IMG/VR virus record: IMGVR_UViG_3300020438_000236
Span: 1-26,133 of that record
DNA from: a virus
Strand: one strand, 5' to 3'
DNA: 26,133 bases
Shown: in pieces, positions 2,322 through 23,000 of the stretch
How positions within the stretch are numbered: position 1 is the first letter of the stretch
Layout of the letters: the number at the start of each line of letters is the position of its first letter
Notes under the pieces: model-generated
Told to the model about the DNA's origin: nothing
The model's input: the letters and a program-made list of their open reading frames with translations, nothing else
Database searches by the model: none
Translations under genes and position numbers: made by a program

Positions 2322-2714
2322 ATGCAGACCTTCAAGACGTTTAAAGATTTAAGCGTCACATTTAAGAAACATCCTATGACCGATGATCTATTGTCGGTCA
2401 AGGATAAGGCTGCTATTAAACAATCGATCATGAATCTTCTACTTACTCAGAAGCGTGAGAGATTATTCAACCCAGATTTGGGTAGTGCGATTACAGAGAT
2501 GTTATTTGAACCACTTGATTATGCTAGTGCTGCAATTATTCAAACTGAAGTTGCAAATGTATTAAATGAGTATGAACCTAGAATTGATGTATTAGATGTT
2601 ATTTGTAGACCTGATATTCGTTTAGATGGTTTTAACGTAGAGGTTCATTTCGAGATCACTGGCAGAAACGATGCGCCGCAGCAGATCAATTTTGTATTAG
2701 AGAGAACTCGATAA
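2322..2714 (+). CDS. gp25: Baseplate wedge protein gp25 (130 aa)
   Basis: This is the T4 gp25 homologue, a gpW/gp25-family protein that joins the inner baseplate wedge to the sheath and helps to start sheath polymerisation. Length (130 aa) is close to T4 gp25 (about 132 aa). The family signature is the EPR motif near the C-terminal half, seen here as NEYEPRIDVLDV (about residues 82-93). Before it lies a helical part with KAAIKQSIMNLLLTQKRERLF and the usual P-x-x-G turn (NPDLGSAI). The gene is followed directly by gp6 (its TAA touches the gp6 ATG). No strong Shine-Dalgarno precedes it. From here the DNA becomes clearly AT-rich. Confidence 0.95.
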   Translation: MQTFKTFKDLSVTFKKHPMTDDLLSVKDKAAIKQSIMNLLLTQKRERLFNPDLGSAITEMLFEPLDYASAAIIQTEVANVLNEYEPRIDVLDVICRPDIRLDGFNVEVHFEITGRNDAPQQINFVLERTR

Positions 2715-4511
2715 ATGCCATACGCACAAATATCAAATCTCGATTTTAAGGATATCAAGGCAGTTCTCAAAGAGTACATGAGATCGCAGTCAGATTTTAC
2801 TGACTATGATTTTGAAGGTTCCGTCCTTAATAATCTATTAGACGTATTAGCGTATAACACGTACTACACGGCGTTTAACACTAATATGGCGGTCAATGAG
2901 TTATTCATTGATTCTGCCACGTTGAGAGACAACGTAGTGTCCATTGCGAGGCAATTAGGGTACAGACCTAGATCGTACACCTCTGCAACTGCATACGTAT
3001 CATTTAATGTTGAATATACACAAGCAACATCTGATACTGAAATAATTTTAAAAGAGGGTACAGGATTTGTTGCTGTATTTAATAACAAGATTTATCAATT
3101 TGTATCGCCAAGCAACGTTTCAGCACAAGTTGTTAACAATAAAGCAACATTTAACGACGTATTAGTAAGAGAAGGAACATTACTTACTAGTAACTACACA
3201 GTTAACGCAGCAAATAAGACACAAAGGTTCGTATTAGATAACCTAAACATCGATGCATCGACAATTAAGGTCGAAGTGTTTGCAGATGGATCTAGTGTGA
3301 GTGAACCATATTTGTTGTCTGACAACATTTTAGATATTACAGCAGATTCCAAAGTATTCTTCCTCAATGAGATTGATGACCAGAGATATGAGCTAATCTT
3401 TGGTGATGGTGTTATTGGTAAGAAATTAGAAGATCAATCATCTGTCGTTGTAAAGTACATCACAACGAATGGACCAGAAGCAAATGGCATTAGAACGTTT
3501 GTCTTTTCAGGCGTCTTAGAGAACGACCTAGGCATCTCTCCTGGTGCATTTGATAGTAGTGTGTTATCAACCATCGCTGCAGTTGGTGGTGAAGAAGCAG
3601 AATCGATTCAGGAAGTCAAGTTTGCTGCACCTAAAACATTTGGTACACAGAACCGAGCAGTCATTGCATCTGATTATGCTGCTATTGTTCGTAACATCTA
3701 TCCTGCAGTTGGTGATATCATTGTATTTGGTGGTGAAGAGCAAGTTCCACCTGAATATGGTAAAGTATTCATTTCTGTTAAACCAAGAGATTCTGCATAC
3801 CTAACATCATTAACGAAATCAAATATTGTTACTGAATTAAAGAAGTATAGTGTTGCATCAGTAGAACCTGTTCTTATCGACCCATCTATTCTATATGTTG
3901 AACTGTCTAGTAAGATTTTCTATGATGGTTCTAAGACAGACAAAGCACCTTCGCGAATTTCAGCAAAGGCAATTTCCACTTTCCAATCTTATGTTGAGAG
4001 GAGTGAGACAGAGAAATTCAATGGTAAGTTCAGACATAGTAAAGCAGTCAGTGTAATTGATGATTCATCAAAGGCAATTACATCAAACTTGACTTCTGTG
4101 ACGATGAGAAAAGATTTCTATCCACAGTTAAATTCTACTTCATATTACGAGATCTGTTTCCAAAATCAGTTTGATAAAGATTGTGATGATCCTGTGTTGA
4201 CGAGTACAGGATTTAGAGTCACTGAATACCCTAATTTTGATGTCTATCTAGAAGATAATGATGGCAAAATTGTCCTATATAGACTAGATGCTTTGACTGG
4301 CGAAAAAGTTGTCCTTGACAAGGAAGTTGGTATTATTGATTATGTAAAAGGTGAAACGATTATGAATAGTTTAACTATTATTAAGGGATCATTTTTTGAC
4401 AATCGCATTTCAGTTAGAGTAAAACCCGCATCAAATGATATTAAAGCATCTCGCGAGGTGTATCTTGATGTTGATGTAGCAAATTCATCCTTTATTGCAT
4501 ACAAAGAGTAA
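2715..4511 (+). CDS. gp6: Baseplate wedge protein gp6 (598 aa)
   Basis: This is the T4 gp6 homologue (T4: 660 aa), which forms the continuous ring of the inner baseplate and links neighbouring wedges. The diagnostic N-terminal block is present at about residues 27-94: SDFTDYDFEGSVLNNLLDVL, then AYNTYY, NELFIDSATLRDNVVSIA and LGYRPRS. A baseplate-J-type motif FGDGVIG lies near residues 229-235. A further family segment, ASDYAAIVRNIYPAVGDIIV, is near 318-337. There is no gap after gp25, and only 5 nt to the following giant gene, with an AAAGAG near its stop that could serve as ribosome binding site for that gene. No oddities seen. Confidence 0.95.
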   Translation: MPYAQISNLDFKDIKAVLKEYMRSQSDFTDYDFEGSVLNNLLDVLAYNTYYTAFNTNMAVNELFIDSATLRDNVVSIARQLGYRPRSYTSATAYVSFNVEYTQATSDTEIILKEGTGFVAVFNNKIYQFVSPSNVSAQVVNNKATFNDVLVREGTLLTSNYTVNAANKTQRFVLDNLNIDASTIKVEVFADGSSVSEPYLLSDNILDITADSKVFFLNEIDDQRYELIFGDGVIGKKLEDQSSVVVKYITTNGPEANGIRTFVFSGVLENDLGISPGAFDSSVLSTIAAVGGEEAESIQEVKFAAPKTFGTQNRAVIASDYAAIVRNIYPAVGDIIVFGGEEQVPPEYGKVFISVKPRDSAYLTSLTKSNIVTELKKYSVASVEPVLIDPSILYVELSSKIFYDGSKTDKAPSRISAKAISTFQSYVERSETEKFNGKFRHSKAVSVIDDSSKAITSNLTSVTMRKDFYPQLNSTSYYEICFQNQFDKDCDDPVLTSTGFRVTEYPNFDVYLEDNDGKIVLYRLDALTGEKVVLDKEVGIIDYVKGETIMNSLTIIKGSFFDNRISVRVKPASNDIKASREVYLDVDVANSSFIAYKE

Positions 4512-4516
4512 CTTAG

Positions 4517-7500
4517 ATGGCTATCAGAACCAAGAAAATTTCTACTCTTATCGAGTCGCAACTTCCGAGCTTTATTGTAGATGAATACCCTCTCTTCTCG
4601 AAATTTGTAGAGAAGTATTATGAGGCGCAAGAAAGTTCTGGGCAACCATTAGATATTGCCAATAATCTTCTAGAGTATAATGACATTAATCTCTATGAGC
4701 AAAACTTGCTCAGGGAAAATAATATTCTAGATGTTACTATTACAGATTCTGATAGTACCATCGTTCTTCAGGATGCAACATCATTTCCAGAGAAGAATGG
4801 TTACATCAGAATTGACGATGAAATCATTTTTTACTCTACAAGAACCGACACTACACTAAACGAGTGTTCTAGAGGTGTTAGTGGTAACACAACTCTAGGT
4901 GACTTGTATGAGGAATCTGCATTTGTTACTACTGATTCTGCACCACACAACTCTGGTGCTGTAGTACATAATGTAAGTAACTTATTTCTCTATGCTCTAA
5001 TCAAGAGTTTTGAGTCACAGTATCTTGCATCTTTTCCAGAAAAGTATTTAAAAGGTGATGTAGACAAGAGAACCCTGATTAAGAATATTAGGCAGTTCTA
5101 CAAAACCAAGGGAACAAGCGCATCTATTAGGTTTGTTTTCAATTCTATTATCTCTAATACAACTAGAGATGTTCCTGAGACATATAATCCAAAAGATTTT
5201 ACATACAAATCATCTACTAGTGATTGGATTAACATCTATGCACTAAAATGTAAGGTTGTTAGTGGTAATCCTAAGGATTTGATTGGTATAAAGATCGTAC
5301 AGGAAGCAACAGAAGAGTATGGTTATGCTGATGCTGTTGTTGACAATGTATTTGCTGATGGTACATCAGATAGTGAGCAAATTTTCAATATTGTATTAGC
5401 ACCTGAAACTGTTAATGGTACATTTGGTGTATCTACAAAAACTAAACTCCGCAAACCCCTGTCAGGGACAGCGACTTCGGGGAATAGAATTGATGTGTTC
5501 TCAACAATAGGTTGGGATCTCACTGGATTAATTTTGATTGGTGATGAGACCATTGAGTTTGATGATAAGACAGTTGACCAGTTCATCATCAAAAAAAGAG
5601 CTGCTGCATCTGCTGGACCTCATGTTGTTGACACTCCTGTATACAAACCAGTAGTTTTAAAAGGATCTAATGTTACTTTGTTAACATTTGGTGTTGTATA
5701 CAACTTATTACCTTCTGATGCACAACCATATTCTGCTATTGGAGACAAGATTCAAGTTTCCAATCCAGGATTTGAGACATCTGATTCTAAAATTGTACAA
5801 ACTGGTACAAATACCACCAGATGGTTGTTAAACACTGGTGCCAATGTAGATGTACCTACGCTACCTGCAGTGGAAACTTTTCTTAATGAAGTATCTACTA
5901 ACGTTTCTTCTATTCTAGCAGATGATCAGTATTACTACATTGCAAGTTCTAGTTATCCATCACACAAAATTTTAGATGGTTCGACTGTAAACGAAGAACT
6001 ATTAGATCAGAAACTGCTTCGTATTATTAGAAAACAAGCAACCAGAACTACAGAAAAGTATTTAACACCCAAGAGTGATGTTGGCATTGCTCTCAATGGT
6101 GTTCCTTTCTATGGATATAAAGATCCTGAAAGTGTTAGGTTTGGTAAATTAGAAGAAATCAAGATTGACAAAAGAGGAACAGGATATACAAAACCTCCAT
6201 TTGTATTGGTTGATCAAGTTCCAAATAAAGCTAGAGCAATTCTTACTGGTCAAGTTGTAGAAAGTATCATTGTTGATACTAATGATGTATTCCCTAGAAC
6301 TCCAGATATTACTATCACCTCTGGTCGTAATGCATCTGTACGTGCTATCATTACTGGTGGTAAAGTTACTAGTCTTGTTATTGACAATCCAGGTGAATTT
6401 TACTCTGCACCTCCACTGATTAGAATTAGGGATAATGCAGGTCGTGGTAGATTTGCAGAATATCTATCTGTTGTTGATACTGACGGAAAGATCACTGATT
6501 TCACTAAAATTGGAGAAGGTAATTTCTATAATCAAGATACTGTTGTTGTTGATGTTATTCCAGTTGGTAATAGTGCAACTGGTATCCCACTTCTTAAAGA
6601 GTGGAACTTTAATAGATTTAATAAAATTGAAGATGAGTTAGATACTGAATATGGTTATATCTTCCCAAATTATAATAATGTACTAGAGTATGGTTATGGA
6701 TATGCTGCTAACCCTAAATCTTTACGTGTTGCTCTCAACGACAACATCAGTAGCTCAGGAACTGAACCCGCTACAAAAACTCACTCTCCTATTATTGGAT
6801 TCGCTTACGACGGTAATCCAATCTATGGTCCATTTGGTTATCAGAACTCTCTAGATTCAACATCCTCTATTGTTAGGATGACATCTAGTTATGCATTGAA
6901 AGGTACACGTAAGGAAGGACCATCATTAATAAAGTATCCCATAGGGTCTTTTGTTAATGACTACACCTATACCCACAGGAGTGGCACCTTAGACGAAAAC
7001 AATGGAAGATTTTGCATTACCCCCGACTTTCCGAAAGGAACTTATGCTTATTTCATTACTATTGATAGCAATCAAGTACCGCAATACCCATACCTTTTAG
7101 GAGAAAATTTCTACTCTCTACCAGTTGATAGTAACTACAATTCTAATATCAGTCAGAATGACGTTCCTAAGAATGCTAGAAAATTCTATGAAGCAGGAAT
7201 GCAGAGAAATGGTGGAGGTGTCATTGCTCAAATTGCAGAAGTAAAGCAAGGTAATGTAGAACAAGTTACTGTAGTAGATTCTTCTGCCAACTTTAGTATT
7301 AACTCACAGGTTTATTTTGACAATAGAGGAACAGAAGGTTCTGAAGTTGAATCTATTGTTAAATCTGTTAAAGGTAAAGGTGTATCTTACCTAGAATCAA
7401 AAGAAGATAAAGTTGTAAAATTAACAACTATTCAAAGTGCATATTTATTTGCTGATGACACATTAAACCAACCCTCTTCTGGTGCAACTGGTTCTATCGT

Positions 7501-10500
7501 TGGTACAGTAAAAAATGATAATATAATTGTACTAAGAAATGTCAATGGTGTGTTTGATGAGACAGGAACGTTCTCTGCAACCATCAAGACATTCATCATG
7601 TTACTTGATCAAAGAAGTTCTTACACCAAGGGTGCAACATTAAGTTTAACTGATGGTGTTAATGCACCCATAGCTAAAGGTATAGTATTAGAAGGAACAG
7701 CAGCACAGAATACAGTACAAATTAAAGTTATTCCTATTCAAGATAACTATGAAGATTTACTTGAAGCAGATTGGGATTATGGTGATTGGTTAGCGTTTAC
7801 TCCAGATTATTTCCTACAATCAGATGACCTATTCAATACTTCAGGTACTAAGTTAGTTCGACTCACTTCACTTAGTGATGGTCTCAATCCATTTGAAGTT
7901 AATCAAAGTGTTGCATTGATCGAAACAGCAGCACCACATGGATTAGGTATTGGTGATAAAGTAGACATCGATATTAATCCTGATGATGCTACTACAACTA
8001 AAACTTATTATCTAAGAAAGAGATTATATCAAGTAGCTACTTTAATTCCACCTAATAGAAAGACAAGTATCAACTTTACTGGTATTGGTCGTTTTGAGAT
8101 CCTTAATGGTGGAGCAGATTACACCCCTGATACTTATACTAGTGTTTCTCTTACTGGTGGATCGGGAACTGGTGCTACTGCTACATTTACTGTATCTGCT
8201 GAGGGTATTGTATCCGACATGCAACTTCAGGATGCTGGTTCTGGATATGCAAGAGGAGATTATCTTGGAGTTGCAGATGAAGATCTAGTAAGATCTGGTG
8301 CATCACAATCTACTGCAAGATTTGCTCTCTATGTTGGACACGTTGGTGTTCCTGCTGGCGGTACAAAGGTCACCGTTGATAGTACAGACGGTTTCTCTGA
8401 TAATGACCTTATTAAAATTGGCGATGAGATTTTGCAAATTGAAAGTATCACTGGAAGTGATCTGTTTGTATCCAGAGGAAAAGAAGGTACTGATGATGTA
8501 GATCACTTTGATGGTCAGGAAGTAGAACTATACAACCCAAGATTTAATTTTACAAATAACTTCCAAATTTTTGATGGATCCAATTCTGGTTACATTCAGT
8601 CATACGATCCTGTAACACATAAAATTAAAATTGTGTATGATTACTCTACTCTCACATCTACAGCAAGTAAAGTAGTATTGAGTTCTAGTTTCTTCGATAG
8701 CAGTAATCCAAGAAGATTAGTTTCTATTAAATCTGCAGAAAATGTTCAATACAATTTTGAATTCTCAGAAGATAATAGTACATTTGTACCTAATCCCAAT
8801 ATAAACATACAAGAATTCTATAAGTATAAATTTGATACTTCACATTCTAGTTTAACTGGTACTTATTTTGATATTAGTCCAAGCAACAACTATAACCTGA
8901 ATACGGTAGAAAAATTAGAAACCACAATTCTTCCTGGTAATGCAGGTTCATTTACTGATGTCAAATTTGGTTTTGGTTACAGAAATGCAACCAACAACTA
9001 TCAAACCAAAGTAGGAACTGATTTTACTAACTTCTATTACTTTGATAAAAAGAATGTAGTAAATTCTGGTGGTGCTTTATTTAAGATTGTAACAGATCCA
9101 CTACAAGGATCTAAAACTTTAATCTATGTTACCCCGAATCGTTTTGTTTACGATGTTGCCAGTCCTCCTCTTTGGGATGGTTCAGGATCTATCACATATA
9201 CTACTACTGGCCAGTTTGCTATTGGTAAGATTGACACAACTCAAATTATTAACTTAGGACTTAACTACAAGAAAGTTCCTGTTATCATTGGTGTTGATCC
9301 ATCTGCACCATATAGAGCAACTGCTGATTTAGAATTTGACATTAAAACTAATACTATTATTGGTGTTAATATCACAAACAAAGGATCAAACTACGTAAAT
9401 CCAAAAATTGTAATCACTAATGGTGATGGTGTTGATGCTTCCTTCAATATCATTTGTAGAAATGGAGAGATTGCTTCTATCACTGTAGATAATGCAGGTA
9501 AAGGTTATACATTCAAACCTGATATTATAATCATTGAAGGTGATGTAGAAGCTTATGCAGAAAGTACATCTATTGGTGTTCCTAAGAGTGTTAAGATTAC
9601 AACTAATGGTGGTGCTTTCCATCTAGACAAAACTGTATCTTCTACTTTCAGTTCAAACTTTATCGTTGCTGTCAAGAACATCAATGGTAAATTCAGCATT
9701 GGTGAAATTGTAATTCAGAAACTGAATGGGGTAGAAGTATTCAGAGGAGTTGTTACCGAATGGAGATTAGGATCTAATCTTCTTAAGATTTCAAATACAC
9801 AAGGAATTTTGCGTGAGAATATTTCTATAGAATCTCTCAGATTCCCTGTAGATGCTATTGTTAGTAAAGTATTTGTTTCTACTTTCAGCGAAGAAATTAA
9901 TAGTTTCTATGACAATTTAGGATACTATAAGTCAGATAGAGGAAGATTAGGTGTATCTAATCAAAAACTACAGGATAGTTTCTTCTATCAGGATTACTCT
10001 TATGTAATCAAATCGGAAACATCTATTGAACAGTGGCGTGATCTTATCAAGTCCACTACTCACCCTGCAGGATTTAAATTATTTGGACAAGTAGATGTTG
10101 AATCTACTGCAAGTTCTGAGATGCCAGTTGAGATGCCAAAGGCATCCCACTTTAGTGTTATTCAATTATGGGATCCTGATAAGAACAAGATAACAGTTGA
10201 AAATACAAGAAGAACTGTTACACAGATTGTACAGAAGGTAGAAAATCAAAGAATTCGTAAAGGTTTTGGTACTGCTGCTCCTAGTGAGTTCTTATTTAAT
10301 GAAAACCGTGCATTTGAGTTTACACTTGCCGCACCTTTTGATGGTTACTATGATACAGATGGTAGATTACAAGGAACTAAGTCATTCCAAATTTTAAATA
10401 ACGGAACTCCATTCTTTCCTGCTTCAGAAAAAGGATTGATTGTAACTCTTGATGGTGTTATTCAAGAACCAGGAGTTGCGTTCACAATTTCTAATGATCA

Positions 10501-13500
10501 AATTGTTTTCTCTACTCCACCTCTAGGACCAGGAACTAAATTAACGGGATCTGGTGGTGCAGTCACAGCATATAAGGGTGTTACTTTCTACGGTAAGGTA
10601 TTCCAATTCAAGGATGCACAATACAATACACAATACCTCAAGAAGATAAGAAATATTTTCCAACGTAATGGTACATGGATTGATGCTGCAAATCAAATTG
10701 AAAGAAATGTAGATTTTATCATTAATGAGGCAATTGGTTTTGGTAAAGCAACATATTCCACATTAGATTGGGCAACCAAGCAAGATGATTACGAAAGGGA
10801 TATTAGAGCAATCTTAGATGCATATCAGCATGACCTAAGATTTGGTGGAAATATTAAAATTATTAATTATACTGAAATTTTCAATAGCAGTGATATCTAC
10901 CAATACATTCAAAATAATAAAACTAACTCTATTGCTATTTTTGAATATGTTTCTAGATTAGCAAAACTTGCTATTAGGAACTGGGATTGGATTGATGTAA
11001 ACATCAGTTATGTCCAAGGGTCTAATATGATGACTGTTAGCAGCACTAAGAATCTTGCTATTGGTTTATTTGTAAGTTCTGGTAGAGCATTCCCTGTAGG
11101 AACAAAGATTGTATCTATTGATAGCGATACTCAGATTACATTAAACAATTCAGCACTAGCTAACTCTGGTGGTGGCGGTGGTGCTCCGTCAGGAACCACT
11201 TCATTAAGTGGCACAGCATCCACTGCTACAATTGCTACAAGCACTGGTGCTGTTGATCCTGGAAATACGTTTACTGTGCCTCCTGGCGTAACTGTTAGTG
11301 TTCCTGTATCATTCTCTGGTACTACACAAGCAGCATTCTCCTGGAGTGGTCAGAGCATTGGTATGTTCTACAAAGCAGGACAACTCATTGCACTCAACAG
11401 AGCATACATTGTATCAGAATCACTAACTTGGGCACAAACACAGTATCCTGGATTGAACTGGGGTTCTATGTCAAGTAAGTGTGGTAGAGACATTGGTCTC
11501 ATGTTAGATGCTTATGTTTATTCACTTAAGTTTGGTGGTAATGAAAAGATTGTAGATGCAGCACAACTATACTATCAGAAGAAACAATATCCATATGGTG
11601 AAGAATTATACTACATCTCTGGTCAGTTAACAGAAACAATTAATACATTTAATTATGCTAAAGATCTGATGATTCAAGCAATGAGAAATCAATTGCCTGG
11701 TACAGATCCTGATGCATTAATTGACTCTGTTTCTCCTGTATGTGCAGAAGTAGAAAGCACATTGAATACCTATCATGGTATTGTCAATACTATTCTAACT
11801 GAAGGTAGAGGTCTTGTCGAAAAAACAAAACAAAATCCTAATAAATCTGGTAACTGGACTCAAGATGTAACTTACTCTAACTACAATATCCTTGGTGATC
11901 CTTTACTTCCTGTAGAAGAATGCACTACAGTGATTTCTGCAATGGATGCATTACATGACAATTTAAGTGATGTAATTAGAGAAGAATCTGTAACAAGATC
12001 TCTTCCAGATTATATTGATGGTGAAACTAAAGAGTTTGAATTATACTGGGATGACAATACTAATGTTGATACTGACAAGGATGAAAATCTATTCATTACA
12101 CTTAATGCTGTATTGCAAAGACCTAAGTATACCGAAGGTTATCCTCTAGAGGATTCTTATTTTATTGATAGAACTGTAATTCCAAACAAAATTAAGTTCG
12201 ATGTAGCTCCTATTTGGGATCAAGATTTCAGTGCCAAAACTATTGGAGAACCAACTGCTGTAGAAAAAGTTGTTGGTATTGGTGTTGGCAATTACAAACG
12301 ACTCACTATTGATTACAATCTAGTCAATAATGTACGTAATGGTCCTTTCCTAATCTTAGATGTAGAGGACTTTACTGTACAAAACATTGAATCAGAAGAT
12401 AGCATGTATGTTTTTGTAGATGGAGTTCTACAAAGAAAAGGATATTCGTATGAAATTTCTGGTCCAAATATTACTTTCAATGTTCCAATTAAAAAGGAAA
12501 TGAAGGTTGACATTAGATATCTTTATGGTAGAGATGTTGGACAAGTTTTAAACATCTATGATTATGCTCCCGATACTTATTTCAGTCAGGGAATATTACA
12601 ATTTTCTGCTATTGAATCTACCTTAGATACTCTTCTTAAGTATACATGGATGGATGATTCAGTTGGAACTGCAATTCATGTTTGGCAACAGAGAGGAGAT
12701 GGAACATATAATGTAATTGGTGAAATTAGTAATCCAATTAGAAATGGTGTTAATACTGTATCTTTTAATATTAAATGTCAAAACCCTGTTATAGAATCTG
12801 GTATTGATTTTACATTTGCTGTTAAAGGCAAATATAATAGAAATATTACTATTTCAGTTTCTACTCCTGTGCTCTCATTCAAAGAGGATGAGTTTGGAAG
12901 AAAACTTCTGAAAGATGATAATGGAATATGGTCTGGAACTATTCTTGGCAAGACATACAAACAACCATTTGTATACCTTTCAAATAATGATAAGATTAGA
13001 GTAGAAGGTGAAGAAGGATTCAGAAGAATTAAGAAACTTCCATCTGAAGCTATCAGTAAAGATGGTAGAGATGGACAGCAAACTACAAATAATATTTTTG
13101 GTACAGTATCAATTGAAAGTTATACTGGAATTACTAGAGGTGAAGGTCTTTCTGTTGTTGCAACTATTAAAAATGGTAAAGTATTAGAAGTTGCTATCCA
13201 AAATGCGGGGTCAGGTTATAGCGATGCCATTGGAGTTGAAATTCCAGAATTTACAGAAACTATTGGTGGTGTTGATGTTAAGAAATTTGGTCTTGTAATT
13301 GATATTACAACAACTGGTGACACAGTTACTAATATCAAGATTATTGAAGGTGGAGAAAACTATGATATTGGTGATGTCATTGCAATTCCTGGAGGAACTG
13401 ATGGAACGTTTATTATTAATGATGTACTAGATGGTTACGTTTCAAATCTAACTTGGAACCAGCGTAGTTATGATCCAATTACCCAACCTACTGCATATCA

Positions 13501-15109
13501 GTATTATACACCACCTGTTCTTAAGTTTGAATCTTTAGATGGTAATGGTGGTGGTGCTAGAGCAAATGTTCTAGTAAGTAAAGGTCAAGTAATCAGTGTT
13601 GATCTGATTGATAGTGGTTTTGAATATACTACTGCTCCCAAGATTATTGCAACTAGAAGATTTGACATCTTAACAGAAAGAGACGTTGGTGTTTCATTAA
13701 TTAATATTGGTATTAACCCATATATTGAAACCTTTGGTCTGACTGCAATTTCGGTTGTATCTGAAATTGATGAATCTGGTCTTAACTCTATTAGTGGTAT
13801 CAGTTCTGTTTTTGTACAGGTTGCAGGTGATGCAGAAATTGTTATTGAAAGAGAATTTAATCTCAAGGAAGTTGAGGTATTCTCCATCGGTGGTGCTTTA
13901 GATCCAAAACGAGATTATATTGAATTCTTCTCAACAGAAGAAACATCAGCTGATGATGTTAAAGTTATAGATGTATTTGCTGGTGGAACACTAGTATCTG
14001 CAGCAGTACAAGATATTGTATCTCTAAATTCCATATCAACAATTTCTAAAGCAATTACTACTACAGTACAAGTAGAAATTGAAAATAATTCAATCGCGAA
14101 TTACAATTACTTTGAAAATGCTGCTTACTTACAAGTTGACTTTAATATCAATGATAGTATTGCTTATATTGGAGACACTACTAAGTTTGCTCCTAATGGA
14201 AAATTATTAATTGGTAATGAGATTGTATTCTATAATAGGAAACTTTCTGATAGATTTATACAAATTCTCAGAGGATACGAAAATACAACTGAGCAAGATT
14301 GGATTGCTGGAACATATCTAAGACAGATTGAAGATATCAGTGTTATCTCTGCTGGTATCGTTACTATTGAATCTGAAAGTGATTTCACAATGGTTGCTGG
14401 TGGTGTAAATAATACTCAGTTTGAAAGATCTACACAAAGAGAAGTTTCTGCACCTGCTGACTTCTCTATTACAAGAGAAGCATTTGAAATTGTTATTACT
14501 CCACCTCCTGGTGGTGCTGTTGACGGATATCAAGAAACTGCATTTATTAATGATCCAGTACAACAAAGAAATCAAAATAAAGTTGATTTACTTAAAGATT
14601 CTATTGGTAACTATACTGTCACCAAGCGTAATGGTACTATTATTATAGTTAGAAATGAATTGTTTGGAACCAATGACTACGTTGGCAAATATCTAAAATC
14701 TAACGTAGGACCAACAATTGGCAACTGGCAATATATCTCTTTTGATGATGGAACTGCTAATGTATCTGGTTTTAGTATTGGAGATATCACCCAATACTTC
14801 CCTGCCTTGACTATTGGTGATTTCACTGATAGAGCAGATTCTAGTTACACTAAATCAGGTGATAAGTTCAATTTAGGAAATCCATCAATTCAAAATCCAG
14901 TTACTAGTTCTCTGGATTCTGGAACTATTCCTAGTGTTCTTAATGCACAAAAAACATCATACTTCCCTGTTTCTGGTTACCTCTTTACAGGTCAAGGATC
15001 AGTTTTACAATACACAGGCAAAACCATAAATTCCTTTACTGGTTGCACTCTGGTGAGAGGTCCAAACACCATTGTGAACGGAGACGAGTTAGTTCCGTTC
15101 CCAATTTAA
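4517..15109 (+). CDS. Giant baseplate/virion structural protein (3530 aa) in the gp7 position
   Basis: A single uninterrupted frame of 3530 codons lies between gp6 and gp8, where T4 has gp7 (1032 aa); equivalence to gp7 is by position. Segments I recall from other T4-like phage structural proteins are the N-terminus (residues 1-50, SQLPSFIVDEYPLFSKFVEK; about 180-212, IRQFYKTKGTSASIRFVF) and a core near 1806-1865 (QDYSYVIKSETSIEQWRDLI, then HPAGFKLFGQ). Around these are modules: IGDE-type hairpins (about 86-125, 326-363, 1285-1330, 3208-3262); GxGY beta modules (about 549-640, 1189-1250, 1613-1673, 2876-2961, 3010-3048); a YHYH-like domain in two parts (522-541 and 725-868); DGVxQ units (about 1975-2010, 2525-2570, 2629-2675); and a duplicated helical domain (2061-2158 and 2291-2395) joined by a Gly5 and Ser/Thr-rich linker (about 2217-2280). 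No enzyme active site was recognised. It probably forms a large peripheral wedge arm. It starts 5 nt after gp6. Confidence 0.92.
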   Translation: MAIRTKKISTLIESQLPSFIVDEYPLFSKFVEKYYEAQESSGQPLDIANNLLEYNDINLYEQNLLRENNILDVTITDSDSTIVLQDATSFPEKNGYIRIDDEIIFYSTRTDTTLNECSRGVSGNTTLGDLYEESAFVTTDSAPHNSGAVVHNVSNLFLYALIKSFESQYLASFPEKYLKGDVDKRTLIKNIRQFYKTKGTSASIRFVFNSIISNTTRDVPETYNPKDFTYKSSTSDWINIYALKCKVVSGNPKDLIGIKIVQEATEEYGYADAVVDNVFADGTSDSEQIFNIVLAPETVNGTFGVSTKTKLRKPLSGTATSGNRIDVFSTIGWDLTGLILIGDETIEFDDKTVDQFIIKKRAAASAGPHVVDTPVYKPVVLKGSNVTLLTFGVVYNLLPSDAQPYSAIGDKIQVSNPGFETSDSKIVQTGTNTTRWLLNTGANVDVPTLPAVETFLNEVSTNVSSILADDQYYYIASSSYPSHKILDGSTVNEELLDQKLLRIIRKQATRTTEKYLTPKSDVGIALNGVPFYGYKDPESVRFGKLEEIKIDKRGTGYTKPPFVLVDQVPNKARAILTGQVVESIIVDTNDVFPRTPDITITSGRNASVRAIITGGKVTSLVIDNPGEFYSAPPLIRIRDNAGRGRFAEYLSVVDTDGKITDFTKIGEGNFYNQDTVVVDVIPVGNSATGIPLLKEWNFNRFNKIEDELDTEYGYIFPNYNNVLEYGYGYAANPKSLRVALNDNISSSGTEPATKTHSPIIGFAYDGNPIYGPFGYQNSLDSTSSIVRMTSSYALKGTRKEGPSLIKYPIGSFVNDYTYTHRSGTLDENNGRFCITPDFPKGTYAYFITIDSNQVPQYPYLLGENFYSLPVDSNYNSNISQNDVPKNARKFYEAGMQRNGGGVIAQIAEVKQGNVEQVTVVDSSANFSINSQVYFDNRGTEGSEVESIVKSVKGKGVSYLESKEDKVVKLTTIQSAYLFADDTLNQPSSGATGSIVGTVKNDNIIVLRNVNGVFDETGTFSATIKTFIMLLDQRSSYTKGATLSLTDGVNAPIAKGIVLEGTAAQNTVQIKVIPIQDNYEDLLEADWDYGDWLAFTPDYFLQSDDLFNTSGTKLVRLTSLSDGLNPFEVNQSVALIETAAPHGLGIGDKVDIDINPDDATTTKTYYLRKRLYQVATLIPPNRKTSINFTGIGRFEILNGGADYTPDTYTSVSLTGGSGTGATATFTVSAEGIVSDMQLQDAGSGYARGDYLGVADEDLVRSGASQSTARFALYVGHVGVPAGGTKVTVDSTDGFSDNDLIKIGDEILQIESITGSDLFVSRGKEGTDDVDHFDGQEVELYNPRFNFTNNFQIFDGSNSGYIQSYDPVTHKIKIVYDYSTLTSTASKVVLSSSFFDSSNPRRLVSIKSAENVQYNFEFSEDNSTFVPNPNINIQEFYKYKFDTSHSSLTGTYFDISPSNNYNLNTVEKLETTILPGNAGSFTDVKFGFGYRNATNNYQTKVGTDFTNFYYFDKKNVVNSGGALFKIVTDPLQGSKTLIYVTPNRFVYDVASPPLWDGSGSITYTTTGQFAIGKIDTTQIINLGLNYKKVPVIIGVDPSAPYRATADLEFDIKTNTIIGVNITNKGSNYVNPKIVITNGDGVDASFNIICRNGEIASITVDNAGKGYTFKPDIIIIEGDVEAYAESTSIGVPKSVKITTNGGAFHLDKTVSSTFSSNFIVAVKNINGKFSIGEIVIQKLNGVEVFRGVVTEWRLGSNLLKISNTQGILRENISIESLRFPVDAIVSKVFVSTFSEEINSFYDNLGYYKSDRGRLGVSNQKLQDSFFYQDYSYVIKSETSIEQWRDLIKSTTHPAGFKLFGQVDVESTASSEMPVEMPKASHFSVIQLWDPDKNKITVENTRRTVTQIVQKVENQRIRKGFGTAAPSEFLFNENRAFEFTLAAPFDGYYDTDGRLQGTKSFQILNNGTPFFPASEKGLIVTLDGVIQEPGVAFTISNDQIVFSTPPLGPGTKLTGSGGAVTAYKGVTFYGKVFQFKDAQYNTQYLKKIRNIFQRNGTWIDAANQIERNVDFIINEAIGFGKATYSTLDWATKQDDYERDIRAILDAYQHDLRFGGNIKIINYTEIFNSSDIYQYIQNNKTNSIAIFEYVSRLAKLAIRNWDWIDVNISYVQGSNMMTVSSTKNLAIGLFVSSGRAFPVGTKIVSIDSDTQITLNNSALANSGGGGGAPSGTTSLSGTASTATIATSTGAVDPGNTFTVPPGVTVSVPVSFSGTTQAAFSWSGQSIGMFYKAGQLIALNRAYIVSESLTWAQTQYPGLNWGSMSSKCGRDIGLMLDAYVYSLKFGGNEKIVDAAQLYYQKKQYPYGEELYYISGQLTETINTFNYAKDLMIQAMRNQLPGTDPDALIDSVSPVCAEVESTLNTYHGIVNTILTEGRGLVEKTKQNPNKSGNWTQDVTYSNYNILGDPLLPVEECTTVISAMDALHDNLSDVIREESVTRSLPDYIDGETKEFELYWDDNTNVDTDKDENLFITLNAVLQRPKYTEGYPLEDSYFIDRTVIPNKIKFDVAPIWDQDFSAKTIGEPTAVEKVVGIGVGNYKRLTIDYNLVNNVRNGPFLILDVEDFTVQNIESEDSMYVFVDGVLQRKGYSYEISGPNITFNVPIKKEMKVDIRYLYGRDVGQVLNIYDYAPDTYFSQGILQFSAIESTLDTLLKYTWMDDSVGTAIHVWQQRGDGTYNVIGEISNPIRNGVNTVSFNIKCQNPVIESGIDFTFAVKGKYNRNITISVSTPVLSFKEDEFGRKLLKDDNGIWSGTILGKTYKQPFVYLSNNDKIRVEGEEGFRRIKKLPSEAISKDGRDGQQTTNNIFGTVSIESYTGITRGEGLSVVATIKNGKVLEVAIQNAGSGYSDAIGVEIPEFTETIGGVDVKKFGLVIDITTTGDTVTNIKIIEGGENYDIGDVIAIPGGTDGTFIINDVLDGYVSNLTWNQRSYDPITQPTAYQYYTPPVLKFESLDGNGGGARANVLVSKGQVISVDLIDSGFEYTTAPKIIATRRFDILTERDVGVSLINIGINPYIETFGLTAISVVSEIDESGLNSISGISSVFVQVAGDAEIVIEREFNLKEVEVFSIGGALDPKRDYIEFFSTEETSADDVKVIDVFAGGTLVSAAVQDIVSLNSISTISKAITTTVQVEIENNSIANYNYFENAAYLQVDFNINDSIAYIGDTTKFAPNGKLLIGNEIVFYNRKLSDRFIQILRGYENTTEQDWIAGTYLRQIEDISVISAGIVTIESESDFTMVAGGVNNTQFERSTQREVSAPADFSITREAFEIVITPPPGGAVDGYQETAFINDPVQQRNQNKVDLLKDSIGNYTVTKRNGTIIIVRNELFGTNDYVGKYLKSNVGPTIGNWQYISFDDGTANVSGFSIGDITQYFPALTIGDFTDRADSSYTKSGDKFNLGNPSIQNPVTSSLDSGTIPSVLNAQKTSYFPVSGYLFTGQGSVLQYTGKTINSFTGCTLVRGPNTIVNGDELVPFPI
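10697..11701 (+). repeat. Two diverged copies of a helical domain within the 3530-aa protein
   Basis: This is a protein-level repeat. Copy A (10697-10990) and copy B (11387-11701) share an order of motifs: an N-x-x-[FY]-I start, a Y-x-x-L-[DN]-W step, C/E-R-DI, LDAY, then L-[RK]-FGGN-[IE]-KI, a tyrosine-containing segment, and a final A-[IM]-RN. Between the copies lies a beta-type stretch and a Gly5 plus Ser/Thr-rich linker. The DNA of the two copies is not obviously similar, so the duplication is old. Confidence 0.8.
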
Positions 15110-15169: not shown

Positions 15170-16984
15170 ATGGCTGCTATTATCTCTGATAAGTTTAGAA
15201 TTTTCAATGCTAAACAATTCCTGGAATCGTTAACGGAAGGTCCTAACGATACCAGTGCGGAACGCTCTCGAATGTACTTTTTTGTGGGTCGTCCACAACC
15301 ATGGAAAGCTTACTTAGAAGTTCACACAAAAAATTCCACGGCGTTTGTAGTTGGCAACGAAGTGTACGTTGGGACATATGGTTCCACCGTTTTCCGTGCC
15401 ACAGTTGCTGCAGTTTATGATAGTGCCCTTCTTCTGACCGACGTTTTTGGCAGCAACGGTGTTAACTCCGCTCCTCCTATTGGTTCTGCTTTAAAAGGTA
15501 GAAGTGGTGGTTCTGGCGGTTCTGATACTGGTGCCACAGCAGTTTCTGGTATATATCGTTACGCTACTGAAGATGTTCCGCCCCTTCCTCTTGATAACCA
15601 AACAGAGAAGAGAGCACTGTATGACGAGTTAGTTGCTGCAAAGCGTATTACTGATTCATTTGCAAGAACAGTTATCCGTCGTTACAACTGGGATCTAGTT
15701 GCTAACCCTAAGTTTGATATGTGGAAACCTGACTACTCTGCTACCCCTGGTGGCGGCGGTCAAGTCGGTAAGCAAACTGCAACAGGTGCTGCAAGCATTG
15801 CAGATGCTAAGTTCTATGTTATGAACTCCGCATATGAAGTATTCAAGTGTCTTTACAATGGTGAAGACCCTTCCAATAGCACTGGACAAAACGCTACTGA
15901 AGAACCAACTGTAGCAGGTGCTAATTATGATTCTGCTACTGGTATCTACACAGAGACAACTGGTGCTGGTTATGTTTGGAAGTATATGTACACCATCCCA
16001 ACTGATGATGTACTGAAGTTCCTTTCTTCGGACTTCATGCCAATCGTTCTTCCTGCTAACTCATCTAGACAGGCAGTTGTTGCTGTTGCTACTGGTGGCG
16101 CTGTTGATGTTGCTTTAGTTGAGAACTCTGGTACTAACCTCCCTGCATCACAAACTCTTTATACTAGTGTTAAAGGTGACGGAACTGGTGGTGTTGTTAA
16201 GTTTGTAACTAATGGTTCTGGTACAATCACATCTGCTGAGATTGAAGCTCGTGGATCGGGTTATACCTATTCCAATGTTCTTCTAGGCAATGGTAACCTC
16301 TTCTCTGATGCTGGTCTAAGCAGCGCAGTCACAACTGGTGCTACTGCTGTTGGTGCTATCGAAGTTGTTCTACCTCCTGCAGGTGGTCACGGTTCCGATC
16401 ACGAGACAGAACTAAATGGTAAGCGTGTTATGACTAACATTCGTCTTACTTATTCTGAAGGTCAGGGTGACTTCCCTGTAGATAACGACTTCCGTCGTAT
16501 CGGTATCATTGCTGATCCATACAACTATGGTACTACAACCTTTGCAACAGATGACACACTTTCTGGTCTAAAGGCACTTAAGATTACTGGTGCTACCGCA
16601 GATTTCTCTGTTGACGAGAAGATTACTCAAACAGTTGCTGGTGGTACAGCATATGGTACAGTTGTATCATGGACACTAGATAGCGGTTCTGTAACTGCTG
16701 GTGTTCTTAAGTACATCCAAACCAATGATGCACACACAGATCAAGGTGTTGTAAGAGCATTGGAGAGCAATGGTTCTAATGCTGTTACTGGAGAATCTTC
16801 TACCGCTTCTGGTAATGTAGATACAAGTTACAGTTCTGCTCTATTAGGTTCCACATTTGCAAGTGGTCTTGCTAATCCAGAGATTGAAAATAACTCTGGC
16901 AATGTAATCTACGTAGAGAACCGTCGTTTGATCACTCGTGCTCCTGACCAGATTGAAGATATCAAACTAGTCATCGAATTCTGA
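15170..16984 (+). CDS. gp8: Baseplate wedge protein gp8 (604 aa)
   Basis: This is the T4 gp8 homologue, a dimeric wedge protein of the outer baseplate. Signatures in order: SDKFRIFNAKQFLES (6-20) and FFVGRPQPW (37-45), like T4 ITFGRSEPW; GAGYVWKYMYTIP (about 264-276), like T4 GDGYVWEYLFEIP; DFRRIGIIADPYNYG (about 440-454); and the C-terminus NVIYVENRRLITRAPDQIED, like T4 EMIYMENRPPIIMAMDQTEE. T4 gp8 has 334 residues, so this protein is nearly twice as long. The extra length sits mainly in three places: a Gly-rich stretch (about 112-127), a beta-rich insert with a GSGY motif (about 290-430), and a segment (about 455-575) before the C-terminal motif. Ribosome binding is weak (CGGA at 15155-15158). 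Own promoters and terminator make it a separate unit. Confidence 0.96.
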   Translation: MAAIISDKFRIFNAKQFLESLTEGPNDTSAERSRMYFFVGRPQPWKAYLEVHTKNSTAFVVGNEVYVGTYGSTVFRATVAAVYDSALLLTDVFGSNGVNSAPPIGSALKGRSGGSGGSDTGATAVSGIYRYATEDVPPLPLDNQTEKRALYDELVAAKRITDSFARTVIRRYNWDLVANPKFDMWKPDYSATPGGGGQVGKQTATGAASIADAKFYVMNSAYEVFKCLYNGEDPSNSTGQNATEEPTVAGANYDSATGIYTETTGAGYVWKYMYTIPTDDVLKFLSSDFMPIVLPANSSRQAVVAVATGGAVDVALVENSGTNLPASQTLYTSVKGDGTGGVVKFVTNGSGTITSAEIEARGSGYTYSNVLLGNGNLFSDAGLSSAVTTGATAVGAIEVVLPPAGGHGSDHETELNGKRVMTNIRLTYSEGQGDFPVDNDFRRIGIIADPYNYGTTTFATDDTLSGLKALKITGATADFSVDEKITQTVAGGTAYGTVVSWTLDSGSVTAGVLKYIQTNDAHTDQGVVRALESNGSNAVTGESSTASGNVDTSYSSALLGSTFASGLANPEIENNSGNVIYVENRRLITRAPDQIEDIKLVIEF

Positions 16985-17083: not shown

Positions 17084-20000
17084 ATGCCACAGAAGACAAA
17101 CCTTAATGTAAATCCTTATTACGAGGACTTCGATGCGAATAAGAATTTTTATAAAATTCTATTCCGTCCTGGATATTCGATCCAAACTAGAGAATTAACT
17201 CAGTTACAATCGATCCTCCAAAACCAAGTAGAAAGTTTTGGTAAATATGCATTCAAGCAGGGTGAGCTTGTCATTCCTGGTGAGGTTGGTCTCAACACAA
17301 AATTAGATTACGTAAAATTATCGTCTGTTTCTGAGGTTGCGGTCTCTGAAGGAAACGATATTGTTTATAAGAAATATGATATTTCACAACTAATCGGTCA
17401 ACAACTGATTGGTTTAACTTCTGGTGTCAAAGCTACTATTCTCGCAACAACACTAGCAACAGAATCTACCTCTGATACATTGTATGTTAACTACATCAAT
17501 AGTGGTAGTTCTAATACAGAACCAACCTTCCGTCAAGGTGAAACTCTAGAAGTTGTAGATGGTGTCAATACACCGCTTCTAGTTGTTGGTACAGATGGTA
17601 GTGTTTTGCCTACTAGCATTGAAATTACAAACCCAGACACAGGAGAAACTACCTCTCTAGAAAGTCCTGCAATGGGATTTGGTTCTGCTGTAAAGGTAGA
17701 AGAAGGTATTTACTTTGTCAATGGTTATTTCGTCCGTTGTGATCAAGAACTATTAGTCATTGACGAATATTACAACAAACCATCTGCAAAAATTGGTTTT
17801 ACAATTAAAGAAGAAATTGTAACCCCCGAAGAAGAATCATCGTTATATGATAATTCTATTGGTTCTTCTAACTATACTGCTCCAGGAGCACACAGATTAA
17901 AAATTAGTTTAAAGTTAAAAGAGTTTGCTCTAAATGCAATTACCGATAAAAACTTTATTCAACTTCTTACTGTTTCTAAGGGGCAAATACAAAGTAAGAT
18001 TTCTTCGACAGATTTTAGTGTAATAGAGCAAACTCTAGCACGTAGAACATTTGATGAATCTGGTGACTATGTTGTCGATAACTTCTCTGTTGATGTTAGG
18101 GAGTGGGCACAGAAAAATGGTAACAAGGGTCTATATGCCGTAGATGACTTTGGTCTCTACAATGGATATGATGTTGGAACATCTTCTAGAAAGATGGTTG
18201 CTAGCGTTGGTCCTGGTAAAGCGTACATTAAAGGTTATGAGATTGTTAATAAAGAAACTAAGTATCTAGAAATTAACAAAGCAAGAGAAAGTCTCTCTAC
18301 TGATAATGTAAATATTAAATCAAGAGGTTTACCTTCTTACAGCATTACTAATGTATATGGTAGCGTTCCTTTGAATAAGGAAGGATCCGACCTAACTGCA
18401 TATCCTGACGTATTTTTATACTCAGTATTTAATGATGGTTCTATTGGTCTCAACGATACAGAATTATCAACAGATCACAGACAAACAATTGATAGAAGAG
18501 GACTATCTTTCACTCCAAATGATGGTATCAAAACCATTACTCTACAAATTACAGATCCAGTAAATTTAATTGGTTCTGTATCAGATAGTAGTTTTCAATC
18601 TCAGTATGGTGAAATGTATTTCATCAAAACAAGAAGTGATGTAGGAACACCAACTGCTATTTCATCGTTCAAAACTCTATCGTTTGCTATTACAAACAAA
18701 CCATTAATTCAGTCAGAAATATCTGTTAAGTTTTTAGAGTTAACTATAGTTGGTCCTAAAAACGAATTAGAACAGTTATTATTGGAATATGATCTTTCTG
18801 ATCCTGATCTCAAGAGAAACATTTATCTTTCTGAATCTGATGCTGCATCTGGTGGACAAGAATTTGGTTTTGTTGTAGATTACTCTAATACTATCACACC
18901 TGTTATCGGTAAATCTAAACCAAATAACTTCTTCCTTAAGAAAAGAGGAGATGGTTTTAATTCAGATTCTGATATTATTTTATCTAGAGGTCGTCTTGCT
19001 GCTGGATCTAGTGCATACAATGCAACTTTTGGTTTATCATATTTCGATCCCCAATTCTTCACTAAAATTATCCTAGAAACAGTTCCTAATGGATACAGCG
19101 AAGGTAAGTATGTATTTGGTGTAGACAGTGGTGCATATGGTGTTGTAGAAGGAACTCCTTCTGGTGTATACAGTACAAATAATCTTTTGTTTGTTAAAAC
19201 ACTATCTGGTAGATTCTTATCTGGAGAAACTATTAGAGATGAAGATGGTAATACGGTAAGGATTGCTAAAGAAAATACTATCTCTCATTTTGTTGTACAA
19301 AAAAGAGGTTTAGGATATGCTGATGGTTGCACGTTATTAATTAATGGTTTGCAGTTTGATTCATCTAAAATTCTTCTTAGTAAAACAAACTCAGGTTCTA
19401 TTTACAAAGCTTCTGTTTCTAATAGAAGATCGGTAAACATTGAATATGCACAACCTCCTAATGTAACTGCACAAAATCCTGAAGGTGCATCAGTTCCTGC
19501 AGCAGCTGCATCTGTTGTACCTATTCTATTCAGAGATACAGTTACTACGTACACTCCACAGAATGTAAAATCTCTTGGTTGTTCATATGGATCTGGAAAT
19601 GCAAATACTTTTTCTGCAGACGTTGTAGTTGATAGTCAAAAATATTCTGAAATTAAAACTGTCACTGACTATACATTCTTTGGTTCACAAGGATCTTCTT
19701 TTGTAGAATCTACTAGTTTTAGTGCTGATGCTTCTAATGATGTACAGCAAGGAGATCTAGTACAATTCTCTGACGATGATAATAATTTGGTAAGGGCAAT
19801 TGTACAATTTGCCACCAAGCAAGAAAGTTCATATAAATCTAGAATTTATTTTGATACTGTGCTGCCAGGTCCAGTAACAAATGCAAGTATTGTAAGATTA
19901 CGTCCAAAGGTAGACAATTCTACAAGTGGCACACTATTATTCTCCACTGGAAGCAAGCAGGTTTCTCAAATTTCTGCAGGTGGTGATGATACTAAGATCA

Positions 20001-23000
20001 AATATTACTTCCGTAGAGATTTTGTAACTACTGCATCATCTAATGGTGGTACAATTACATTTGCTGCTCAGTTACCATTTGGTACACAGAGATTTGCAAG
20101 GTTTACTGAAGAGAACTACATGATCACTGTGATTGATCCAGGTGATGCACCTGATATTGTTAGGGGTGATATTGTTTACATTTCAGAAGAAAATGTTGAG
20201 ATTTCATCTTCTACTGACACATCCAGTGGTTTAACTTCTGGTAGTATTAGTTTATCTCTACCTACAACTTACTTTGGTAGTGTACCATCTAATGGAACAT
20301 TCCCAAAACTTAAGTTAACTGCAACATTAGAAGTATCTAATGCAAAACCAAGATTAAAAACTTCCATAAGAAACAAAAGAATTACAGTTACATCCGCTGG
20401 TGATCGTGTTGTACCATTAAGAGGTACTGATTACGATACAGAAGTTGTATCAATCTTATCATACTCTGATGCATTTAAACTCAGATATGTATATGAGGGA
20501 ACACCTTCTCAACCACCACAAATTGATACTGCTGGAAATCTAATTTCTGGTACTGACGTAACATCCAGATATACTTTTGACAATGGACAAAGAGATACAA
20601 TTTATGATGTATCCCGTATTGTATTGAAACCTGGATTTGAAGCAACTATTGGACAACTTGTTATTGCTTTCGATTTCTTCGAGCATTCACAAGGTGATTT
20701 CTGTACTATTGATAGTTATCTACATGAAGCAGGAGTTGCGGAAGATGAAATCCCAACATTTGATTCATCTGTTCTTGGTATTACAGAACTCAAAAATGTT
20801 ATCGACTTTAGACCTAAGGTGGATAACAATGCTATCATTCCTGGTTTCCTTGATACTGCTACATTAGAAAGGACAGAAGGATCTTTTGCTGGTGCTGGTG
20901 CGGTTATTGCTAGCAGTCCTGCTCCTGATTTAGGACTAGAGTATACATTCTCCTTTAGTCAAAAACAATATCTAGATCGTATTGATGGTATCTTCCTAGA
21001 CAAAAAAGGAAGATTCATCGTCAAAGAAGGTAACTCTTCACTCAACCCATCTAAACCAGATCCTATTGAGGATGCTGTACCTTTATTCTATGCACATATT
21101 CCTGCATTCACAAAGACCAGTAAGGATGTAAGGATTACTCCAGTTGATAACCGTCGCTACACAATGCGTGACATCGGTAAACTAGAGAAGCGTATTGAGC
21201 GTCTTGAGTATTACACTACACTCAGCATTCTAGAGCAGCAAGCTCTTAATATGCAAGTCAAGGATGAGATTGGACTTGATAGATTTAAGTGTGGATTCTT
21301 TGTTGATAATTTTGAAGCACATAGAGTAGGTAATCTTAAGTCATTGGATTACAGATGTGCTATCGACCCACAACAATCTGTATTAAGACCACAATCTAAA
21401 GAAGATTCTATTAAACTAGTAGAAGTCAACGTTAGAGAAGATCAAAGAACTGTTGCTGGATACAAGAAAACTGGTAATATGGTAACTCTACCATACTCTC
21501 CATTATCTTTATTAGGAAATAGTTTTGCTTCTGGAAAATTAAATCCAAATCCATTTGTTGTTCTCCAATATGTTGGTGATGGTGATTTAACTCCTTCTAT
21601 TGATCAATGGTATGATCAAAGTGTAGAACCAGTTGTTGTTGATACAAATACCGACTTATTTAATATTTTCTTGGCAAAAGAAAATGTCAAAGAAAGTTTC
21701 TCAAGTTTACACAATTCATTTGTAATTAATTGGGTTGGTGCTTCTTCTTCATTCACTTCTATTAATTCTCTTGGTGAAGTTAATTCACAAGTAGCAAATA
21801 CTTCTGTTACAACTGCATCTGTAGGAAGTTCTTCTAACATCAGTCCTAAGAATAATGAGGTAGGAAAAGGAGTACAAACAAAAACTTCTGGTGATAGAAT
21901 TGTATCTACATCTCTTGCATACTTTACTAGAAGTGTTCCTGTCAAATTTAAAGTTGGCAGAATGAAACCTAATACTAGAATCTACGTTTTCCTAGAAGGA
22001 AGAGATATTTCTCGTTGGGTTAACCCTGACCTAAGATATACTGGGATTGCAGGTAATTCCTTGTCTGCATTTAATGGTACTATTACAACTGATGAGTATG
22101 GTAATGCATCTGGTTTAATTGTTGTTCCTGCGGGTGCTCCACCAGCAGAAAATGCAACGTGGTCTGGAGATCTTGGAACATTAAATTATGACAATAGTGC
22201 AGAAGAGTTGAACTTTACTTCTGGTATCTTAACATTTAGATTTACTTCTAGTGCAACTAATGAAGAAAAACTAGGTGTAGATTCTTATACTGAAGTTAAG
22301 TATTATGCCACTGGTATTTTACCAGAAAATCCTTCTGGAATTGTATCTACAAAACCATCTGTCTTCAAATCTAATGAGGGTGTACAGTTAATTGAAAGTA
22401 ATACTGACAATCCCATCAGACCAAATCCACTAGCTCAAACCTTCAAAGTTGAAAATCTAGATGGTGGTTGTTTTGTTACTGGAATTGATCTTTACTTTAG
22501 CAAGAAGAGTAATACTATTCCAGTCAAAACATATATCACTAATGTAGATGCAGAAAAACCTGCTAAGAACATTATTCCTGGTTCTGAAAAAACTTTATCT
22601 CCAACTACAATTCTAAAATGTTTTGCTAGTGGAAATATGTCAGTTCTAAAAGGAGAGAATGTAACTGGTGCATCTTCTGCTGCTTCTGGTCCTATTCTTA
22701 AGATCTTTGATAAGAACAACGTAGAATTAGTATCTACTGTATCTGGTAGATATAGTTTGACTAACGAACAAGTTTACACTGTTGTTCTTAGTAATCATAA
22801 TGGAAAATCTTTCCGTCCCAATGAAGATTTAACTATTCCATCTGTAACTCTTGCAAATGCAACTGATGGTACTGACTTTGTTCTTGCTATTGCAAAAGAC
22901 AGTGGCAAGTTGTCAGATATTAGAATTACAGATACTGGTCTTAACTATGATAGTGCAATTATCAGTATTGAAAGTCCACAACTTCCTGGTGGTTCTAATG

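Follow-up and report, generated by a model that had tools for sequence, protein, structure and literature searches.

A split YHYH domain without its histidines in a gp7-type baseplate wedge protein of cyanophages

The viral record IMGVR_UViG_3300020438_000236 of IMG/VR (positions 1 to 26,133; the whole 26,133-nucleotide stretch is called the window here) encodes a giant gp7-type baseplate wedge protein of 3530 amino acids (aa), and we found that this protein carries the YHYH domain in two pieces, parted by GxGY beta modules inserted after the NGV strand of the family. The two pieces are homologous to the family and keep its order; the three family histidines are lost, both conserved aspartates and most family residues of the C-terminal part are kept, and the domain is under purifying selection. 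We consider it likely that the split domain is dead as a metal site and structural in function; most likely, it is a structural remnant of an enzyme rather than the wall-cutting enzyme predicted in a published survey. The gene, the parts of the domain and its key residues, all on the + strand, are as follows.

4517..15109, + strand: open reading frame (ORF) of the giant gp7-type baseplate wedge protein bearing the split YHYH domain (phrog_4406, phrog_2885, PF23786; gp6-like and gp8-like neighbours)
5897..6112, + strand: YHYH N-terminal half, aa 461-532, ending VGIALNGVPF (hhalign to template 5-85, with shuffle control; found as a separate piece by hidden Markov model (HMM) in orthologues)
6113..6598, + strand: inserted GxGY beta modules, aa 533-694, replacing ~18 family residues (no YHYH profile match; this kind of module recurs in the protein)
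6599..7102, + strand: YHYH C-terminal part, aa 695-862, including the degenerate metal loop (hhalign to template 104-278; PF14240 at aa 751-855)
6641..6643, + strand: D709, counterpart of family D119 (Asp in 96/102 relatives)
6656..6658, + strand: Y714, counterpart of family H124 (His in 4/102 relatives)
6695..6715, + strand: YGYAANP, aa 727-733, counterpart of YHYHxxP (profile alignment, 102 relatives)
6782..6784, + strand: H756, the histidine of phage forms (101/102 gp7-type)
6809..6811, + strand: D765 in the ADG motif, counterpart of family D179 (Asp in 102/102)

Residues 751-855 score 107.2 bits with the Pfam YHYH profile, PF14240 (E 1.4e-30; the curated cut-off is 25 bits), bearing out an earlier note on this DNA, made from the sequence alone, which had assigned aa 755-868 to the C-terminal half of the family; the N-terminal segment gave no Pfam match of its own. 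We then took an alignment of 102 diverse gp7-type segments, drawn from viral contigs and including the window, and compared it with an alignment of 70 intact YHYH domains, of which bacterial genome contigs supplied 68 and compact phage proteins 2. Here hhalign matched two separate stretches in collinear order, aa 461-532 with positions 5-85 of the template and aa 695-862 with positions 104-278, the latter with an E value of 1.9e-42. The N-terminal half scored 49, compared with at most 17.8 for 100 column-shuffled templates and 11.2 for the reversed template, while the insert alone had no match to the YHYH profile. An HMM of the intact proteins located both pieces in the window and in the cyanophages S-SSM4, ACG-2014d, S-RIM14 and P-TIM40. 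The N-terminal half thus precedes the motif in the window protein (aa 461-532), in the order of the family, and the insertion separates the NGV strand from the W-to-D segment, with ~162 residues standing in place of ~18; modules of the GxGY kind occur elsewhere in the protein near aa 1198, 1235, 1623, 1661, 2892, 2940 and 3034. The earlier note had rightly seen an N-terminal half, with the stretch VGIALNGVPFYGYKD, which we confirmed at aa 522-536 (6080-6124), although it placed this half at aa 522-541 and the half begins near 461. Likewise, GxGY modules do split the domain, but the ~180 residues allotted to them shrink to ~162 (aa 533-694), and residues 695-733, with the degenerate metal loop, belong to the family domain. 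In the C-terminal part, HSPIIGFAYDGNPIYGPFGY begins at H756, and the LDENNGRFC...YFIT stretch ends before ~868.

AlphaFold2 modelling of aa 440-900 from the gp7-type alignment gave a predicted local distance difference test score (pLDDT) of 92.7 and a predicted template-modelling score of 0.82. A Foldseek search of viral models ranked gp7-type proteins at the top, followed by the compact YHYH protein of S-RIM14 (E 6.5e-16, 437 columns, template-modelling score 0.42 of 461 residues). This score corresponds to ~194 residue equivalents, exceeding the 168 residues of the C-terminal part, so both halves probably contribute to the match. The strand order is the same in the window model and the compact model, the latter being of low confidence (pLDDT 68.8). 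Taken with the profile matches and the confidence of the model, the Foldseek result suggests that aa 461-532 and 695-862 pack into one domain. Alternatively, the C-terminal part alone could derive from YHYH, with a chance N-terminal resemblance and two segments that fold apart. Pfam reports just aa 751-855, and an HMM of cellular proteins matches the N-terminal half weakly (conditional E 0.018), profile-profile comparison being needed to show that half at all. Such an origin is nevertheless very improbable given a score of 49 against a shuffle maximum of 17.8, an N-terminal match that orthologues show in the same position, and a Foldseek match longer than the C-terminal part.

Sequence and profile searches of solved structures, started from the window segment, the full 3530-aa protein, the compact YHYH protein and a cellular one, found no credible relative, and NCBIfam gave no match. 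Structural comparison of the window model with the PDB matched mainly the inserted beta modules, to immunoglobulin-like and tail-sheath domains at Z of at most 5.3, with none resembling the YHYH part; these matches may reflect a common arrangement and no more. The same comparison with the low-confidence compact model gave nothing at Z of 2 or above.

In the intact cellular and compact phage domains, D119, H124, Y131-H132-Y133-H134 and D179 are invariant (70/70), which fits the account of YHYH by Iyer et al. (PMC7824862), with its histidine triad and aspartate. The window protein has no Y-H-Y-H, with YGYA at the aligned place, and its upstream D-x4-H is broken, D709 being kept and Y714 standing for the histidine. 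Across the 102 gp7-type segments, the H132 column holds Gly, Ala or Ser (His in 2/102) and the H134 column mainly Val, Leu or Ile; of 44 positions near-invariant in the intact domains, 25 of the 41 non-histidine ones are retained at a level of at least 80%, with another 8 mixed, but none of the three histidines is kept. No H-x-H upstream of the D-G motif lies at the YHYH position in any of 266 segments (nearly all gp7-type), the single H-x-H there adjoining HSPII. The loss of both motif histidines, proposed in the earlier note from YGYGYAANPKS at aa 725-735, was thereby confirmed; anchored on the conserved proline, YHYHxxP corresponds to YGYAANP and not to YGYG, and beyond that proposal the third family histidine (template H124) is lost and both conserved aspartates are kept.

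A metal could still be bound through a changed site composed of D709, D765, H756 and other invariant acidic residues (D815, D826), in either a catalytic or a metal-stabilized domain. D709 is conserved in 96/102 relatives, H756 in 101/102 and D765, D815 and D826 in 102/102, and H756, which precedes SPIIG, is conserved in intact and degenerate phage domains alike and not in the cellular ones compared. Set against this, all three histidines invariant in 70 intact proteins are gone, no other H-x-H appears at the motif, and D815 and D826 are conserved family-wide and may be structural; we regard a changed site as quite unlikely.

Several observations weigh against the metal-dead, structural domain that we favour. 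The alignment of the degenerate loop is anchored solely on W696, D709, Y727 and P733, and a shift of one residue would put a histidine at a motif histidine in 53/102 relatives, though not in the window. These relatives have His at the second Tyr position of the motif, where the window has Tyr (Y729); a histidine there would point away from the motif histidines in a regular strand. Foldseek superposes the window model on the intact protein with a root-mean-square deviation of 9.4 Å, and to call the domain a dead enzyme rests on prediction, with no solved YHYH structure found.

In spite of these points, the structural reading has further support. The orthologue in phage S-CREM2, ORF122, was detected in virions by mass spectrometry with 91 unique peptides (PMC10665884), and its reading frame bears the same YHYH domain as the window protein. 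Median ratios of nonsynonymous to synonymous substitution rates against 42 to 58 close relatives were 0.11 for the N-terminal half, 0.17 for the insert, 0.12 for the C-terminal part and 0.07 for the motif loop, values of strong purifying selection; the degenerate domain is therefore maintained. The presence of an orthologue in the virion, the selection on both halves and the retention of fold residues with the three histidines gone make a structural scaffold the best-supported reading of the domain, as the earlier note had proposed. Its further description of an ancient enzyme-like fold is unproven, because we came across no YHYH protein of proven activity and the family's metal site is itself predicted (PMC7824862). 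On the structural reading, the two halves would close into one domain from which the inserted beta modules protrude as a side arm; the domain would no longer bind the metal predicted for the family and would have a structural, possibly adhesive, role in the baseplate.

The domain may instead bind receptors or carbohydrates as part of the baseplate, which would be compatible with a structural role. It sits in a baseplate protein, and one paper places phage YHYH domains among host-recognition domains; yet the C-terminal part and the motif loop are under strong purifying selection and conserved in many phages, unlike typical host-range modules, making a binding module unlikely, if conceivable.

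The published survey, Iyer et al. 2021, predicted phage YHYH proteins to be tail-associated metal-dependent (Zn) hydrolases, giving AOO14285.1 as an example (PMC7824862). We found that AOO14285.1 is the gp7-type protein of S-RIM14 Sn_11_0110, with neither YHYH nor H-x-H anywhere in its 6198 residues, and that its YHYH match is split and the domain degenerate as in the window protein. The histidine triad that the paper describes as conserved in these tail proteins is thus missing from its own example, and by the same test of triad plus aspartate the window protein has 0/3 histidines, with the aspartate kept. A working tail-associated zinc hydrolase in this position, for which that prediction speaks, is on these residues scarcely credible. 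The neighbouring AOO14286.1 retains YHYH, and the hydrolase prediction may hold for this compact protein; it is not supported for the baseplate-fused one, judging from the residues present.

Bacterial PF14240 proteins (e.g., Deinococcus WP_239051980) and the window protein share the order of parts, NGV...W, then D...P...G-x-A-x-D-G-x-P-x-Y, then LD-x-x-NGR...TPE/D-x-P-x-G-x-Y-x-Y, and both score above the Pfam cut-off, but the bacterial proteins are contiguous and free-standing and keep D-x4-H and YHYH, whereas the window protein has lost the three histidines and gained ~160 residues. Compact phage proteins (phrog_2576; S-SSM4 CYXG_00060, S-RIM14 AOO14286.1) fall with the window protein on the phage side of the family split and have in common with it the FC-x-TP and YAYF features and the histidine, seen only in phage forms, that precedes S-[PK]-I. 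Unlike the window protein, they keep CGGH and YHYH, have no insert and end in a C-terminal region that is weakly alpha/beta-hydrolase-like. In this region we noted sub-threshold similarity to Abhydrolase_2 (E 0.0025 to 0.025) with a G-x-S-N-G stretch (L096:2200-3093, L098:2200-3054), and an esterase fused to YHYH is a possible reading of the compact protein.

In a tree of the C-terminal part, a branch with 100/99 support splits all phage forms from the cellular ones, so the phage copies, intact or degenerate, probably descend from one phage ancestor; the tree does not resolve how these copies branch from one another, and a few of its distant rows (L377-L379) are possibly not orthologous. Each of three different YHYH queries matched 463 records among 50,697 phage records, with labels of Synechococcus, Prochlorococcus, cyanophage, marine virus and one Actinomycetia phage. 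Of 14 diverse cyanophage records searched in full, 13 have a gp7-type copy, S-B64 showing a third kind of YHYH alone. The split degenerate domain is common to cyanophage gp7-type proteins rather than special to the window. A full-length compact copy besides was found only in S-SSM4, ACG-2014d, S-RIM14 and P-TIM40 (4/14) and is absent from 10/14; in S-SSM4, ACG-2014d and S-RIM14 it is the gene directly after the gp7-type one. In such relatives, the intact compact protein of the next gene would keep the activity of the family, whatever that is. A bolder proposal makes the gp7-type domain an exapted pseudoenzyme general to cyanomyoviruses, its fold a platform that, in phages also encoding the intact compact protein next door, docks that protein so that dead and active copies cooperate in the baseplate; we hold this to be improbable.

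YHYH is a widespread domain for which we found neither a solved relative nor a demonstrated activity. Cyanophages offer a natural pair, an intact and a split histidine-less copy, sometimes in adjacent genes, making the proposed metal site directly testable. Our analysis also corrects the published functional prediction: the baseplate-fused form, the cited example included, lacks the zinc ligands that were predicted, and annotating these giant proteins as peptidoglycan hydrolases from a YHYH match would therefore be unsafe.

The gene lies in a T4-like marine cyanophage baseplate cluster, as indicated by its gp25-, gp6- and gp8-like neighbours, its wedge profile matches and its gp7-annotated relatives. 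The neighbours, again on the + strand, are as follows.

2322..2714, + strand: gp25-like baseplate wedge gene (PF04965, phrog_261)
2715..4511, + strand: gp6-like baseplate wedge gene (PF21379, phrog_219)
15170..16984, + strand: gp8-like baseplate wedge gene (PF09215, phrog_438)

The order gp25, gp6, the 3530-aa ORF and gp8 puts this protein in the place of T4 gp7, between gp6 and gp8. T4 gp7 is a protein of ~1030 aa, so the window protein shares its gene position and is about three times larger. The phrog_4406 match spans nearly the entire protein, which is also matched by phrog_2885 (baseplate wedge) and, at its N-terminus, by PF23786 (Baseplate_wedge); "gp7" is the annotation of relatives in P-SSM2 and S-SM2. 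Among solved chains, phmmer found no match to the 3530-aa protein, in a search that did not include a profile comparison with T4 gp7. We dropped VrlC as a protein name, which records apply inconsistently (in S-RIM14, to the gene after gp8). We likewise rejected an error of sequencing or assembly, because the arrangement is found in hundreds of contigs and isolates that are independent of one another.

At 604 aa, the gp8-like protein is longer than the 478 positions of its PHROG profile, which also matches GxGY modules of the gp7-type protein at aa 1610-1666; gp8 of these phages seems to carry a GxGY module too. After gp8 comes an ORF of 2696 aa with DUF4815 (PF16075; phrog_358) at 17084-25174. 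A third YHYH-derived domain, also without YHYH, occurs in a further baseplate wedge protein of ~1150-1190 aa (L383:22414-25968, S-RIM14 AOO14288.1; L117/L120, ACG-2014d; S-SSM4 CYXG_00062) and is split elsewhere, with ~150 residues inserted in its C-terminal half. In MN018232.1 (S-B43), the two YHYH matches, at 133308-133793 (+) and 43599-43892 (-), belong to two large ORFs of 2162 and 4346 aa, one on each strand, which represent either two genes or a chimaeric assembly. Giant viruses also have YHYH domain proteins (BFVD A0A5B8IDC5 and A0A5J6VJS1, from Mimiviridae ChoanoV1 and a Megaviridae sample).
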